A stretch of DNA of 64,000 nt from Peptococcaceae bacterium BICA1-7 (GTDB taxonomy: Bacteria; Bacillota; Desulfotomaculia; Desulfotomaculales; Desulfocucumaceae): contig JUEB01000026.1 of assembly GCA_000802095.1 (NCBI GenBank), positions 186,001 through 250,000 of the forward strand. The letters are read 5' to 3'. Shown in pieces: positions 26,903 to 43,304 of this stretch. Position numbers and translations under genes: made by a program. Numbering within the stretch: position 1 is the stretch's first letter; every line of letters starts with the position of its first letter. The notes under the pieces were generated by a model. That model was not told the DNA's origin. It saw only the letters and a list, made by a program, of their open reading frames with translations, and did not search any database.

Positions 26903-27466
26903 GTGTGCCAAATAGACGGTAACAATACCGACCAAAAATACTCCAGCCTGGACAAAGTTATAGAGCGCTACAGCAGTGAACAGGGGCAGCTTATTCGTAT
27001 ACTTCAGGAGGCCCAGGAGATATTCGGCTATCTTCCCGAGGAGGTTCAGACCTATATAGCCGGCAAAACAAACATACCGGTCAGTGAAATTAACGGTGTG
27101 GTGACCTTTTATTCACTTTTCAGCACCGATCCCAGGGGCAGATACGGCATAAATGTATGCCTGGGCACTGCCTGCTATGTTCAGGGAGCCCAGGGAATTC
27201 TGGAGGATTTCAGAAGGGATCTGCAGCTTAAAGAGAGGGACACCTCAGAGGATGGTCTCTTCACGGTTAAAAGCACCCGGTGTGTGGGGGCCTGCGGGCT
27301 TGCGCCGGTTATAACAGTAAATGATGAGGTGCACGGGCGGGCCAGCCGTAAGGATGTAGCCAGGATTCTAAGGAAATACAGAAAGATTGAGGAGGCTTCA
27401 GAGAAGACTGATGACAAGCATAAAAGACCTGCAGCGGATCAGGAAGAGCATCCTCCCGGCCCTTGA
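26903..27466 (+). CDS. NuoE/HydC-type [2Fe-2S] thioredoxin-like subunit
   Basis: This is the 24-kDa-type subunit of NADH-dependent dehydrogenases or bifurcating enzymes. The 187-residue protein has a helical N-terminal part (EIFGYLPEEVQTYIA) and the thioredoxin-like domain. Its four cluster cysteines are in CLGTACYVQGA and CVGACGLAP. The start is doubtful: GTG 26903 overlaps the GGAGG site at 26899-26903, and ATA at 26912 is better spaced. Its C terminus overlaps the start of the NuoF-type gene, so they form one unit. It passes electrons between NADH-reduced FMN in NuoF and a partner. Confidence 0.88.
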   Translation: MCQIDGNNTDQKYSSLDKVIERYSSEQGQLIRILQEAQEIFGYLPEEVQTYIAGKTNIPVSEINGVVTFYSLFSTDPRGRYGINVCLGTACYVQGAQGILEDFRRDLQLKERDTSEDGLFTVKSTRCVGACGLAPVITVNDEVHGRASRKDVARILRKYRKIEEASEKTDDKHKRPAADQEEHPPGP

Positions 27467-29282
27467 CTCCAGGCGAAATGCCGATATGAAATTTCCTTTG
27501 CACCAGGTTATGGTCTGCACCGGAACCGGCTGCTCATCATCAGGCAGCCGCCCCATTATTGAGAGCCTTAAAAAGGAGCTTGCGGACCAGGGTCTTTCAG
27601 AAGGAGTAAGGGTTATAAAAACAGGGTGCTTCGGCTTTTGCAAGCTGGGTCCCATTATGGTAGCGCACCCGGGGGCCGTTTTTTACTGCAACGTCACCCT
27701 TAAGGATATACCAGAATTAGTAAACAGCCATTTTGCAGAAGGAAAGATACTGGAGAGGCTTCTCTATGAGGAGCCGGACACAGGGGAAAAAAAGGTGGGC
27801 CTGCACCAGATACATTTTTTCAGCGCCCAGCAGAGACTGGCCCTGAGGCACTGCGGACTGATTAACCCCGAAGATATTAGTGAATACATTGCCGCAGGGG
27901 GCTACTTCACCCTGGAGAAGTGCCTGACCGGCCGGTCACCGGAAGGAATAATAGACGAGGTAAAAAAATCCGGACTCCGCGGCAGGGGCGGAGGAGGGTT
28001 CCCGGTGGGGCTAAAATGGGAGGCAGCCCGGGCGGCTGAAGGTAAAGAAAAGTATGTGGTCTGCAACGCCGATGAGGGTGATCCAGGAGCCTTCATGGAC
28101 CGCAGCATTCTTGAGGGAGATCCTCACTGTATTCTTGAGGCCATGGCCATTGCGGGCTACGCCGTGGGGGCCGGCGAGGGGTATATTTATGTAAGGGCGG
28201 AGTATCCCATTGCCGTGGACCGCCTGGAAAATGCCATATCCAGCGCCAGGGATCACGGCCTTTTGGGAAGCAATATTTTAGGGACAGGCTTTAGCTTTGA
28301 CATACAGCTTCGTCTGGGGGCCGGAGCCTTTGTCTGCGGCGAGGAAACCGCTCTTCTAAAATCTGCTATGGGCCTGCGTGGAGAGCCCCGCCCCCGTCCG
28401 CCTTACCCAGCCCAGTGCGGGCTTTGGGGAAAGCCAACCCTTTTAAATAATGTGGAGACCTTTGCCAATATCACTGAGATATTATCCAGGGGACACGGCT
28501 GGTTTTCTTCAATAGGCACAGAGGGAAGCAAGGGCACCAAAGTATTTTCGCTGGCCGGAAAAATAGTCAACACCGGGCTTATCGAGGTTCCCATGGGCAC
28601 CACCCTCCGGAAGGTTATTTTCGATATTGGCGGCGGAGTGCCTGACGGCAAAAAGTTTAAAGCAGTGCAGACCGGAGGGCCCTCGGGGGGATGCCTTCCT
28701 GAGGACTATCTGGACTCTCCCATCGATTATGAGTCCCTAAAGTCAGTGGGTTCGATGATGGGGTCCGGAGGGCTTATTGTGATGGACGAGAATGACTGCA
28801 TGGTAGATATAGCCAAGTTCTACCTGCAGTTCAGCCAGGACGAGTCCTGCGGAAAGTGCACCCCCTGCCGGGTAGGCACTAAAAGAATGCTGGAAATACT
28901 GGAGAGGATTACCGGGGGAAAAGGCGAAATGTCCGACCTCTACGAGCTTGAAGACCTTTCCGGAGAGATTATGGACGCCTCCCTGTGCGGCCTGGGGCAA
29001 ACCGCGCCTAACCCTGTGCTATCCACCATAAAATTTTTCCGTGATGAATACGAGGCCCACATAGTCCACAGGGAGTGCCCCGCCGGTGTTTGCCGGGCGC
29101 TTTTGGATTATGCCGTTGATGAGGAAAAATGTGTTTCCTGCGGGCTTTGTGCAAATTCCTGCGTAGTCAATGCCATCTCAGGGGAGAAAAAAGGCCGGCC
29201 CTATTTCATAGACCGGCAGTTGTGCTTAAAGTGCGGCGCCTGTGAAGCCAAGTGCCCCAAAGGGGCGATCTACGCACACTGA
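27411..29282 (+). CDS. NuoF/HydB-type NADH-binding flavo-iron-sulfur subunit
   Basis: The roughly 623-residue protein has domains in this order: thioredoxin-like [2Fe-2S] (about 20-115; CTGTGCSSSGS, CFGFCKLGP), an FMN/NADH domain (about 180-400; GLRGRGGGGFPVGLKWE, CNADEGDPGAFMDR, GAGAFVCGEETALL), SLBB, the [4Fe-4S] N3 site (ESCGKCTPCRVGT ... CGLGQTAPNP), and a C-terminal 2x[4Fe-4S] ferredoxin (CVSCGLCANSC, CLKCGACEAKCPKGA). This is the HydB/HndC layout seen in NADH-linked hydrogenases, formate dehydrogenases and bifurcating complexes. No catalytic partner follows. ATG 27411 was chosen; TTG 27387 is also in frame. Confidence 0.92.
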   Translation: MTSIKDLQRIRKSILPALDSRRNADMKFPLHQVMVCTGTGCSSSGSRPIIESLKKELADQGLSEGVRVIKTGCFGFCKLGPIMVAHPGAVFYCNVTLKDIPELVNSHFAEGKILERLLYEEPDTGEKKVGLHQIHFFSAQQRLALRHCGLINPEDISEYIAAGGYFTLEKCLTGRSPEGIIDEVKKSGLRGRGGGGFPVGLKWEAARAAEGKEKYVVCNADEGDPGAFMDRSILEGDPHCILEAMAIAGYAVGAGEGYIYVRAEYPIAVDRLENAISSARDHGLLGSNILGTGFSFDIQLRLGAGAFVCGEETALLKSAMGLRGEPRPRPPYPAQCGLWGKPTLLNNVETFANITEILSRGHGWFSSIGTEGSKGTKVFSLAGKIVNTGLIEVPMGTTLRKVIFDIGGGVPDGKKFKAVQTGGPSGGCLPEDYLDSPIDYESLKSVGSMMGSGGLIVMDENDCMVDIAKFYLQFSQDESCGKCTPCRVGTKRMLEILERITGGKGEMSDLYELEDLSGEIMDASLCGLGQTAPNPVLSTIKFFRDEYEAHIVHRECPAGVCRALLDYAVDEEKCVSCGLCANSCVVNAISGEKKGRPYFIDRQLCLKCGACEAKCPKGAIYAH

Positions 29283-29494
29283 TGCTCATAGGCATTTCCT
29301 GTTAGTCGGAGGAACTCATAGGCATTACCTGATGGTCGGAGGAACTAAAGGGCATTACCTGATGGTCGGAGGTTTAAAGAATATTGCTTCCAGTCGGAGA
29401 CCCCAAGGAATTCACCCACGGTCCTCCGACGAGTCGGAAATGTATCTCGGTCCCTCCGACCAATCGGGAATGCATCGCAGGCTTCTCCCGACCT
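29283..29494. repeat. BIME-like array A: ~30-bp units, inverted about the centre, between convergent stops
   Basis: The array fills the whole gap between the NuoF-type stop (29280-29282) and the ddl stop (29495-29497). Four forward units lie at 29283-29312, 29313-29342, 29343-29372 and 29373-29400, each ending in a form of GGTCGGAGG. After a short centre, inverted units lie at about 29423-29452 and 29453-29484, with part of a further one. Read from either gene, the units have the same orientation. There are no unique spacers, so it is not a CRISPR. A homologous array is at 40279-40521. Confidence 0.85.
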
Positions 29495-30610
29495 TCAGGA
29501 AAGCGTGAAAGTCGTCTTATTCCTGCTCTTCTCCCGGTGCCTTTCCAGGGCCAGTTCTATCAGCCGGTCCAGCAGTTGGGAGTATGGTATGCCGGTGGCC
29601 TCCCAGAGCTTGGGGTACATGCTCAAATCAGTGAAGCCGGGAAGGGTGTTTATTTCATTCACCATAACCGACCCGTCTTTTTTAAGCAGGAAGAAATCAA
29701 CCCTGGACAGCCCGGAGCATTCCAGCGCTTTGAATACCTGCACCGCCAGATCACGTAGCATGACCACTGTTTCCTCCGGCAGTTCCGCAGGTATTTTGAG
29801 CTGGCTCAGGCCGTCAACATATTTGGCCTCGTAGTCATAGAATTCTTTAAGGGGTATGATCTCTCCCGGCAGGGAGGCTGCCGGGTCATCATTGCCCAGT
29901 ACGCTTACCTCCACCTCCCGGGCGTCGATATGCTCCTCCACTATAATTTTACGGTCATAAGCAGCGGCATCTGTCATTCCGGCCAGCAGCTCAGCTCTGT
30001 CATGAGCCTTGCTAATGCCTACGCTGGAACCCAGGTTGGCCGGCTTTATAAAACATGGGTAACCCAGTTCTCTTTCCACCGCCTCGGCTATTTTTACTTT
30101 GTCTTTTTCAAGTTCTCCCCGCAGGCAGGATAAGAAACGGGGCTGTGGAATACCATGATAGGCCAGCACTTTTTTCATCATAACCTTATCCATGCCCAGG
30201 GCAGAGCCAAGCACACCCGACCCCACATAGGGCACGTTGGCCAGCTCCAGCAGTCCCTGTATGGCGCCGTCCTCACCATAGGTGCCGTGCAGCACCGGTA
30301 TAATAACGTCTATTTCACCTTCCAAAAGCCCTGCGCCGCTCCCTTTAAGGTCCGCCAGCCTTCTAAAGCCAGGGTCGGCGGGTAAAAATACCGTATCATT
30401 GCCGGACTTGCCGCTTACACTTCCGGACTCTAAAATAACCTCGTCCGGAGTAAGGCCTTTTATCCACCTGCCCTCACTGCTTATAGCTATAGGCACAACA
30501 GTGTATTTTTCCCTGTCCAGGGCCTTCATCACCGAGGCCGCCGACCTGACTGACACCTCATGCTCTCCGGATCTGCCGCCGAATAAAACGCATACTGTCT
30601 TTTTTGACAT
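29495..30610 (-). CDS. ddl: D-alanine--D-alanine ligase
   Basis: Ddl joins two D-alanines with ATP for peptidoglycan. The 371-residue ATP-grasp enzyme has VCVLFGGRSGEHEVSVRSA at the N terminus, PVLHGTYGEDGAIQGLLELANVPYVGSGVLGSALGMDK in the substrate region, FIKPANLGSSVGI, and the metal site DFFLLKKDGSVMVNEINTLPGFTDLSMYP. The last codons (NKTTFTLS) fall in a short stretch, GTCGTCTTATT on the plus strand, which is also found at the end of array B. The stop abuts array A. It is probably a single-gene unit. Confidence 0.96.
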   Translation of the reverse strand: MSKKTVCVLFGGRSGEHEVSVRSAASVMKALDREKYTVVPIAISSEGRWIKGLTPDEVILESGSVSGKSGNDTVFLPADPGFRRLADLKGSGAGLLEGEIDVIIPVLHGTYGEDGAIQGLLELANVPYVGSGVLGSALGMDKVMMKKVLAYHGIPQPRFLSCLRGELEKDKVKIAEAVERELGYPCFIKPANLGSSVGISKAHDRAELLAGMTDAAAYDRKIIVEEHIDAREVEVSVLGNDDPAASLPGEIIPLKEFYDYEAKYVDGLSQLKIPAELPEETVVMLRDLAVQVFKALECSGLSRVDFFLLKKDGSVMVNEINTLPGFTDLSMYPKLWEATGIPYSQLLDRLIELALERHREKSRNKTTFTLS

Positions 30611-30942
30611 TTTTAAACACCGCCACTTCTAAAGTCTATCTCAAAATAATATTAATTTATCTCCATTGTCAACAGTAAATTGATAATTATATATATTCTC
30701 CCAATACTTTTCTATACCCAAAACCGCCGGCATTGGGCAGCCCCGCCCCGTCAGCGGCCCTTAAAACAGTTGGCGGCCCCCCGCCGCCTATGCATCGGTG
30801 ACATTCCTCCGACCCGAAAGCCAAAATCGATCGGGGACATTATCCCTAACGTATTCCTTATTTGGTGTATCCCAGCCATCCCGATCGGGGACATTCCTGT
30901 CTCAAAAGGATTACTTGGACTTCAGCAGGTGTGTCCCCATTC
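30611..30942. repeat. 332-bp gene-free region with GATCGGGGACATT / TGTGTCCCCATT repeats
   Basis: No gene was seen. The right half (about 30791-30942) holds copies of GATCGGGGACAT (near 30828 and 30883) and one CTTCAGCAGGTGTGTCCCCATT unit, whose GGGGACA and TGTCCCC cores can pair as inverted repeats. The repeat ends exactly at the korB stop codon (30943-30945). The same family lies at 43172-43304, where it ends at the sleB stop. The left half must contain the ddl promoter (leftward); none was convincing. Confidence 0.7.
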
Positions 30943-31674
30943 CTATTTCCCCTTCAACTCGCCCACCTTAAAATACCCGGTCATGGTTTCCTCAACAAAT
31001 TTCCAGGTCTCTTCGGCATTTGTCCTCCAGTTTGTGGGACAGGTGGAAAGCGCCTCCACGAAGGAAAAGCCCCTGCCCTCCAGCTGATTCTCCAGAGCTT
31101 TCTTTAGATAGGCCTTCAGCTGCCTCATATTGGCAATGGTTCCTCTGGCCACATAGGCACCATCCCCGGTTATGGCAGCCACCATTTCGGGACCCTGCAT
31201 GGAATGTCCGGTAGCTTCCGGGTCCCTTCCGTAAGGGCTGGTCTCGGTCTTCTGATCAGGCATGGTTGTGGGGGCCATTTGCCCTCCGGTCATGGCGTAT
31301 ACTGTATTGTTGGCCAGAATAACCGTTATTCTTTCATTTCTGGAGGCTGCGTTGACCAGGTGCTGCGAACCTATGGCATACCCTCCCCCGTCGCCCATGT
31401 AGGCAATGCATATAGTCTCAGGCCTGGCCCTTTTGATACCGGTCATTACCGGTGTGGTCCTGCCGTGGTGAGTCTGTACCGTGTCTATATTGAAAAAGTC
31501 CCAGGATAGAAGTGAGCAGCCTATATCACAGCCATACACCACCCGGCCCTGTATGTCCAGCTCGTCGATGGCCTGCCCCAGGGCCTTTAATATAAGCCCG
31601 TGGCCGCATCCCGGGCAGAACTTATGCGGCTTGGTTTCCTTTCTCCAGCTCCTCGGCATTACCAGATCAGCCAT
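30943..31674 (-). CDS. korB: 2-oxoacid:ferredoxin oxidoreductase beta subunit (orphan)
   Basis: The beta subunit carries thiamine diphosphate for oxidative decarboxylation of 2-oxoacids such as 2-oxoglutarate. The 243-residue protein has FCPGCGHGLILKALGQA (cluster and TPP region), GDIGCSLLSW, TICIAYMGDGGGYAIGSQHLV and VILANNTVYAMTGGQMAPTT. Start ATG 31674 has GGAGGTAATGG upstream. The alpha subunit normally lies directly upstream, but here repeats occupy both flanks (30791-30942 and 31811-31954) and no alpha gene is visible. The partner must be elsewhere, or the gene is a leftover. Confidence 0.9.
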   Translation of the reverse strand: MADLVMPRSWRKETKPHKFCPGCGHGLILKALGQAIDELDIQGRVVYGCDIGCSLLSWDFFNIDTVQTHHGRTTPVMTGIKRARPETICIAYMGDGGGYAIGSQHLVNAASRNERITVILANNTVYAMTGGQMAPTTMPDQKTETSPYGRDPEATGHSMQGPEMVAAITGDGAYVARGTIANMRQLKAYLKKALENQLEGRGFSFVEALSTCPTNWRTNAEETWKFVEETMTGYFKVGELKGK

Positions 31675-31976
31675 TTTCCATTACCTCCAATAGTAATTTT
31701 CTCTATAATTCTGCCCTCCAACAAAAGAAAAAATCCGCCATTTAAGCGGATTAGCCACAGAGAGCATATTTGATTTACTTTTGTAAGCAAATGCTGAATG
31801 TCTTTTTTTAGCCACAGAGGACACAGAGATCACAGAGTTTACATACAGGCACTGCTTATAGGTTTCCTGCAGTATTAGCTGACATATCAGTAATGCCAAA
31901 ACCTCCTGTCTCCCGTCTCCCGACCACAGGTATTACCCTCAAGCAGTCTCCTGACCCTTAAGAAATACTTATAAGC
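31675..31976. repeat. 302-bp gene-free region with composite repeats upstream of korB
   Basis: It holds a CCACAGAGGACACAGAG-type repeat (31811-31837) and, 67 bp on, a CTGTCTCCCGTCTCCCGACC...TACCCTCAAGCAGTCT element (31904-31954). This is the same pair found at 1163-1457. An inverted repeat AATCCGC/GCGGATT lies near 31731-31751. Nothing coding was seen. Confidence 0.65.
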
Positions 31977-40278: not shown

Positions 40279-40521
40279 GCTATCTGGTAGTACCTGTTGG
40301 TCGGAGGGGCTAATGGGCATTACCTTTCGGTCGGAGGTGCTAATGGGTAGTACCTCTGGTCGGAGACCCTCGGGTAATATATCCCCAGTTTCTCCGACCA
40401 ATTGGGCATGCTTCTTCGGTTCCTCCGACCATCCTGAAAAGCACCCTTGGCCCTCCGACCAACCGGAAATGCATCTTCGGCCCCTCCGACCATCCGGAAA
40501 TGCATCTTCGGCTTCGTCGTC
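40279..40521. repeat. BIME-like array B: ~30-bp units, inverted about the centre, between convergent stops
   Basis: The array fills the gap between the CBM gene stop (40276-40278) and the stop of the DUF2512-type gene (40522-40524). Three forward units are at 40279-40307, 40308-40337 and 40338-40366. Four inverted units are at 40391-40421, 40422-40451, 40452-40482 and 40483-40512. Each unit ends in GGTCGGAGG (or GGAGA at the centre), and inverted units share a GATGCATTTCCGG-like middle. It is homologous to array A (29283-29494), including a GTCGTCTTATT tail that runs into the last codons of the minus-strand gene. Confidence 0.87.
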
Positions 40522-43162: not shown

Positions 43163-43171
43163 TGTTTGCTT

Positions 43172-43304
43172 CGTGGACATCCACCGATCGGGGACATTAC
43201 ACCGATCGGGGACATTCCTGTCCCCAAAGGAATACCCCATCTTCAGCAGGTGTGTCCCCATTCATTAATTAAGAAATACTCAAACTTCAGCAGGTGTGTC
43301 TCCA
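43172..43304. repeat. GATCGGGGACATT / TGTGTCCCCATT repeat cluster ending at the sleB stop
   Basis: Two CCGATCGGGGACATT copies (near 43184 and 43203) are followed by two CTTCAGCAGGTGTGTC(C/T)CCATT copies (near 43241 and 43285). The last copy ends at the sleB stop (43305-43307). The same elements in the same order lie at 30791-30942 next to korB. GGGGACA and TGTCCCC can pair, so hairpins are possible. Confidence 0.75.

Follow-up and report, generated by a model that had tools for sequence, protein, structure and literature searches.

A modular repeat family directly after stop codons in Peptococcaceae bacterium BICA1-7 and its sister species

The 212-bp gap that separates the stop codon of a NuoF-type gene from that of ddl, at positions 29283-29494 of the window (the whole stretch of 64,000 nucleotides that was analysed), is occupied by one member of a repeat family that has a modular build, two arm subtypes, a position directly after stop codons and a copy number that differs between sister species at fixed edges. 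We consider this family to be probably, though by no means certainly, a dispersed, non-coding, palindromic repeat of the REP/BIME or MITE type that follows stop codons and would most likely serve as a passive 3' block. As to its role, the account with the best support is that the genome tolerates the element, and may even make use of it, immediately 3' of stop codons.

The NuoF-type ORF (27387-29282, + strand) has a stop codon ending at 29282 and the ddl ORF (29495-30610, - strand) has its stop codon at 29495-29497; the whole element (29283-29494) fills this convergent gap from one stop codon to the other, as an earlier note on this DNA had described. The repeat search detected three direct 30-nt units on the + strand at 29285-29374, with spacings of 30 and 30 (CTMAWRGGCATTWCCTGWTRGTCGGAGG; the A-arm), and two units on the - strand at 29423-29446 and 29453-29476 (GATGCATTCCCGATTGGTCGGAGG and GAGATACATTTCCGACTCGTCGGAGG), which belong to a B-arm of 29423-29482. 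The same search gave inverted arms of 52 nt (71%). In the central hairpin region (29375-29429) a degenerate fourth + unit, approximately 29375-29401, ends in GTCGGAGAC, like the central hairpins of other copies, and is followed by a loop and then by CCTCCGAC. A worn third - unit, the outermost of the B side (29483-29502), overlaps the ddl stop codon, so that the array reaches ddl and extends slightly into the gene. The earlier note had counted four direct units of about 30 bp and homologous units opposed to them. Three of the direct units are clear, but the fourth is degenerate and part of the central hairpin, and two opposed units are clear, but they are of subtype B and not plain reverse complements of the A units.

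The window holds 11 copies of the sequence GTCGGAGG, where shuffling predicts 1.06 (maximum of 4 in 100 shuffles), and 10 of these 11 copies fell in two arrays, 29283-29494 and 40279-40512; a chance origin of the repeats in the 29283-29494 gap is excluded. These were the only two arrays of the 30-bp family within the window, the second one consisting of 3 A units, a core and 4 B units, directly 3' of another stop codon. Folding of the transcripts, which had been proposed as a check, gave z values of -3.4 (+ strand) and -3.1 (- strand) for the 29283-29494 gap. Several other identities of the array were rejected. An 88-aa ORF on the + strand crosses the repeat, yet the family overall is intergenic; a plasmid origin was set aside with no plasmid match; and in place of the near-identical repeats and unique spacers of a CRISPR the units are contiguous, only partly alike and present in both orientations. 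A search of 17 loci against Rfam returned nothing above the gathering score; the only match seen in Rfam searches, to sRNA-Xcc1, was below threshold, with 21.5 bits against 53.

BLAST, pattern and model searches for units in the BICA1-7 genome (G000; 4.75 Mb in 33 contigs) located approximately 100 units in about 29 places, of which 17 were two-armed, 8 were one-armed and 4 held single units. The + units preceded the - units in all 17 two-armed copies and never alternated with them. Of 63 distances from one unit to the next, 58 were 30 or 31 bp. The unit consensus, GnCnAAGATGCATTnCCGnTTGGTCGGAGG, contains a near-invariant GTCGGAG; the positions conserved in at least 90% of units are GTCGGAG, ATT and CC, with variable positions between them, and the conserved core was also present in one-armed copies. 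The arms were assigned by a hand-made score to two subtypes, A (GCTAAAGGGCATTACC) and B (CCGAAGATGCATTTCC), and since the arms differ, the array has an intrinsic direction. Most two-armed copies folded as RNA far better than shuffled sequences (z of about -2 to -10), whereas one-armed copies folded no better than shuffles, so hairpin formation is not the property that all copies share. The BIME-like look that had been noticed at the first array is supported.

Because the arrays share their A- and T-ends with elements filled by 7-bp repeats, the 30-bp arrays are one filling of a modular foldback element. The ends of this larger family are A (GCTTAAGGGTAATACCTCCGGTCGG) and T (GCTTATACTGAAATTC...), and its non-array interiors consist of 7-bp repeats. 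The A unit corresponds to the end module GCTTAAGGGTAATACCTCCGGTCGG, elsewhere followed by ACAGGAG repeats, and the flank of the B-arm in several copies is the conserved end T (GCTTATACTGARATTCTTATTCTGTCGGA), which also ends many other elements with 7-bp interior repeats such as CAGAATT. Both end modules also occur apart from the 30-bp arrays, and in the window such an A-end module (GCTTGAGGGTAATACCTGTGGTCGGGAG), followed by 7-bp repeats, lies at 31917-31944 on the - strand. GCT and GGTCGG are common to the A- and T-ends, whose interiors pair; the outer 16 bp are only partly complementary. In G002, a species of the same genus with 84% DNA identity, one complete copy of about 168 bp (L247) has A and T as its two ends, and its folding z is -4.7. 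The exact A-end pattern was found 34 times in G000 and 17 times in G002 (reversed control, 0) and in none of six other genomes of the family. T-like elements were also observed in G001, of the same genus, and in genus g4.

Some features of these elements and of their surroundings were seen in passing. The conserved A-end (e.g. L247:6510) contains ACCTCC, the anti-Shine-Dalgarno core, a few nt 3' of stop codons, and it is conceivable that it could pair with the ribosome-binding site of the next gene. In three T elements of G002 (L246, L234 and L242) one and the same sequence, TTGACCCTTACCCGAATTGATGG, comes after the CAGAAT part, as if an insertion sequence had used the element as a target. A distinct intergenic repeat family built on TCGGGGACATT / GTGTCCCC is present at 30780-30945 and 43171-43216 of the window; its copies are numerous in G002, and some were also found in G001. 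Repeats of the CACAGAGGACACAGAG type lie at 1166-1457, 14073 and 31813, at two of these three places near A-end modules (1392-1452 and 31917-31944).

For the position of the ends relative to genes the analysis covered some 0.9 Mb of G000, a sample that is in part centred on arrays, and some 1.1 Mb of G002; genes were called by a script. Among A-ends facing a gene 3' end, 28 of 55 lay within 12 nt of the stop codon against 2.8 expected, and among T-ends so placed the figure was 27 of 36 against 1.8. The expected values assume that ends are spread uniformly over the gaps concerned, and none of 10,000 simulations gave more than 10 (A) or 8 (T). In tandem gaps the A-end was turned to the stop of the upstream gene 45 times and to the start of the next gene 15 times, and the T-end to the next gene 41 times and to the upstream stop 18 times. 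According to script-made gene calls, the gaps that hold arrays (n = 29) were co-directional in 18 cases, convergent in 10 and divergent in 1, the convergent share being 10/29 for arrays and 68/562 for gaps (p = 0.002). The rule of placement is thus that the element comes directly 3' of a stop codon, and the filling from stop to stop at 29283 is the convergent form of this rule; convergent gaps are moderately over-represented but not exclusive. The tie to gene 3' ends that the earlier note had supposed was upheld, as copies were not scattered without regard to gene ends. The enrichment at convergent 3' ends that it had named as support was seen in the excess of convergent gaps, but placement in such gaps alone is not supported, as 18 of the 29 arrays lie in co-directional ones.

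The ends facing gene 3' ends lay mostly 0-10 nt after the stop codon, which favours a translation-linked, REP-like control, in which a strong hairpin a few nt after the stop would slow ribosomes at termination, an effect reported for E. coli REPs up to 15 nt from the stop. In E. coli, REPs less than 16 nt from a stop codon have been reported to down-regulate translation, according to a passage of PMC12306157 that cites earlier work. Stop adjacency is also expected, however, if the elements entered short intergenic gaps, and T-ends turned to the next gene often end close to the ribosome-binding site of that gene, so that the sequences which have to be retained seem to define both edges; control of this kind appears unlikely to us. 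A neutral origin fits these edges too: they would result equally if elements had inserted into short gaps or if spacer of no use had been pruned away. We hold it to be as improbable as translation-linked control that the element is a lineage-specific, polar 3'-end cassette, with the A-end at the stop, the T-end before the ribosome-binding site and an exchangeable hairpin interior, that would set the exit and entry of ribosomes and RNA polymerase between genes.

Among the genomes searched, the 30-bp form was present only in the BICA1-7 species and in its sister species G002, which has a few copies. There were none in G001 and none convincing in other genera of the family, and BLAST of 60 relatives gave no match to the 30-bp arrays outside the genus. 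The ortholog of the 40279 array in G002 consists of 1 A unit, the same core and 1 B unit, compared with 3+4 units in G000, and the outer edges of the array are conserved between the two species. A shorter array in G002 was also found at a second locus (C29:2017) and minimal forms at two further orthologous loci, which brings the sites that are shorter or minimal to four in total. At further loci G002 was without an array, two of these having a canonical intrinsic terminator instead. In the clear cases, orthologous gaps lacking the element in one species measured as little as 21-61 bp. In one orthologous pair (L209 / L064) the elements were of one kind but had different 7-bp repeats as filling. 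At the nuoF-ddl gap the contig of G002 is cut; in G001 this gap (L185, approximately 2816-2915) holds an unrelated palindromic repeat (GGTAATTGGTAGTTGGTAATAGG ... TAATAACCAATTAC). A 21-bp convergent gap of G000 (L169, 7291-7313), where G002 has a full element, is made up of a tiny hairpin resembling the A-end, GGCTAAGGGGTATTCCCCTTA.

Array length differs between the species, and recent local duplication is not the visible cause. Comparing units within an arm gave no greater likeness than comparing them across arrays (similarity of 0.676 and 0.693, respectively), and recent tandem duplication was rejected on this ground. Copying of whole arrays was rejected as well, since units at the same position across arrays were no more alike and no positional homology of units was seen across arrays, and so was co-evolution of the A and B arms of one array, the observed similarity being reached in 1807 of 2000 permutations. 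The earlier proposal of tandem growth on both sides agrees with the 1+1 and 3+4 units around a fixed core, but not in the form of recent local duplication. As judged from the sequences, the lengths would fit better with units exchanged from copy to copy, or with old arrays kept close to a consensus.

Units equally unlike within and between arrays are also what old sites held to a consensus would show if the array were, at the DNA level, a set of binding sites for a nucleoid protein, gyrase or another factor, spaced by about three helical turns. The regular spacing of 30 or 31 bp and the sharply conserved core amid variable positions, in one-armed copies too, speak for such an array. The selection of units itself favours the core motif, however. 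Moreover, the arrays track stop codons and avoid divergent gaps, behaviour not required of a supercoiling site, and we regard binding sites as a rather doubtful explanation.

A bidirectional transcription terminator, a symmetric hairpin that would end the transcripts of both genes, corresponds to one of the roles suggested by the earlier note, beside a transcript stabiliser and a supercoiling site. The array fills the gap from stop to stop, no other terminator was detected at nuoF or ddl, and at the two loci mentioned above G002 has a canonical intrinsic terminator at the place of the G000 array. The arrays resemble intrinsic terminators in having a hairpin 3' of a stop codon, but they are much longer, no U-tract follows either arm at 29283-29494, several copies adjoin a canonical terminator, and one-armed copies form no hairpin. 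With a simple finder, which detects a terminator in only approximately 21% of 3' ends, intrinsic terminators were found at 8 of 38 genes with arrays and at 69 of 332 without, that is, with no difference. The suggestion thus found no support, and we judge a terminator quite improbable. The arrays were likewise rejected as replacements of intrinsic terminators, the two loci being suggestive but the frequencies in the sampled genome not differing.

We thus return to a tolerated repeat that probably forms a passive 3' block. The full element is polar, its A-end adjoining the stop codon of the upstream gene and its T-end lying before the next gene, with a foldable interior of tandem repeats, of 30-bp units in the arrays and of 7-bp units in the other elements; where two genes converge, it reaches from one stop to the other. 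It may have spread as a non-autonomous element that was tolerated in the narrow room left by a stop codon before the following stop or ribosome-binding site, its arms being reshaped by repeat turnover. Read-through from either gene would give RNA with a long imperfect hairpin directly 3' of the stop codon. This hairpin would most likely be a passive block that slows 3' exonucleases and damps antisense read-through, not an intrinsic terminator. Exonuclease protection, antisense damping and effects on ribosomes may accordingly be put forward as its roles. Divergence of the non-genic flanks prevented a clean reading of any target-site duplication.

Most work on REP/BIME repeats concerns Proteobacteria, and a link between REPs and Y1 transposases (RAYT) is established. 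A literature search in open-licence papers gave no description of the present family, a dense and independent one that belongs to a Peptococcaceae-like Firmicute and keeps very close to stop codons, and the differing lengths at the same sites in the sister species provide natural alleles with which the role of repeats at gene ends can be tested. Five Y1_Tnp (PF01797) matches are present in G000, but among twelve Y1 loci examined across the family (two of them from G000) no significant match to units or T-ends was found near the transposase gene, and mobilisation by RAYT was rejected for these loci. REP/BIME repeats measure 20-40 bp, are extragenic in convergent and co-directional but hardly ever in divergent gaps, and often touch or supply stop codons; the large REP families described carry GTAG or CGTC tags (PMC3733652). 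The arrays resemble E. coli PU-BIMEs and the GTAG- and CGTC-tagged REPs in unit size, in their many dispersed copies in opposed orientation, in the larger hairpins that are possible and in their location downstream of coding regions in convergent and co-directional gaps. They differ in that the consensus GnCnAAGATGCATTnCCGnTTGGTCGGAGG has neither tag, the unit is not a clear palindrome, all + units precede all - units where BIMEs alternate, there are two arm subtypes and conserved outer end modules, and no Y1 transposase is adjacent at the loci examined. The array is therefore REP/BIME-like and is not filed as a REP/BIME member. With MITEs and foldback elements of the RUP, ERIC and NEMIS type the element shares terminal parts that start with GCT and are at least in part inverted, a non-coding nature, a size of about 60-300 bp and presence or absence between sister species. 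It differs from them in A- and T-ends that are only partly complementary and in a tandem-repeat interior (7 bp or 30 bp) that varies even at orthologous sites, and no autonomous partner IS was found. The build of the family is unusual: two arms, each of a single direction and of its own subtype, flank a core, and the interiors are exchangeable.
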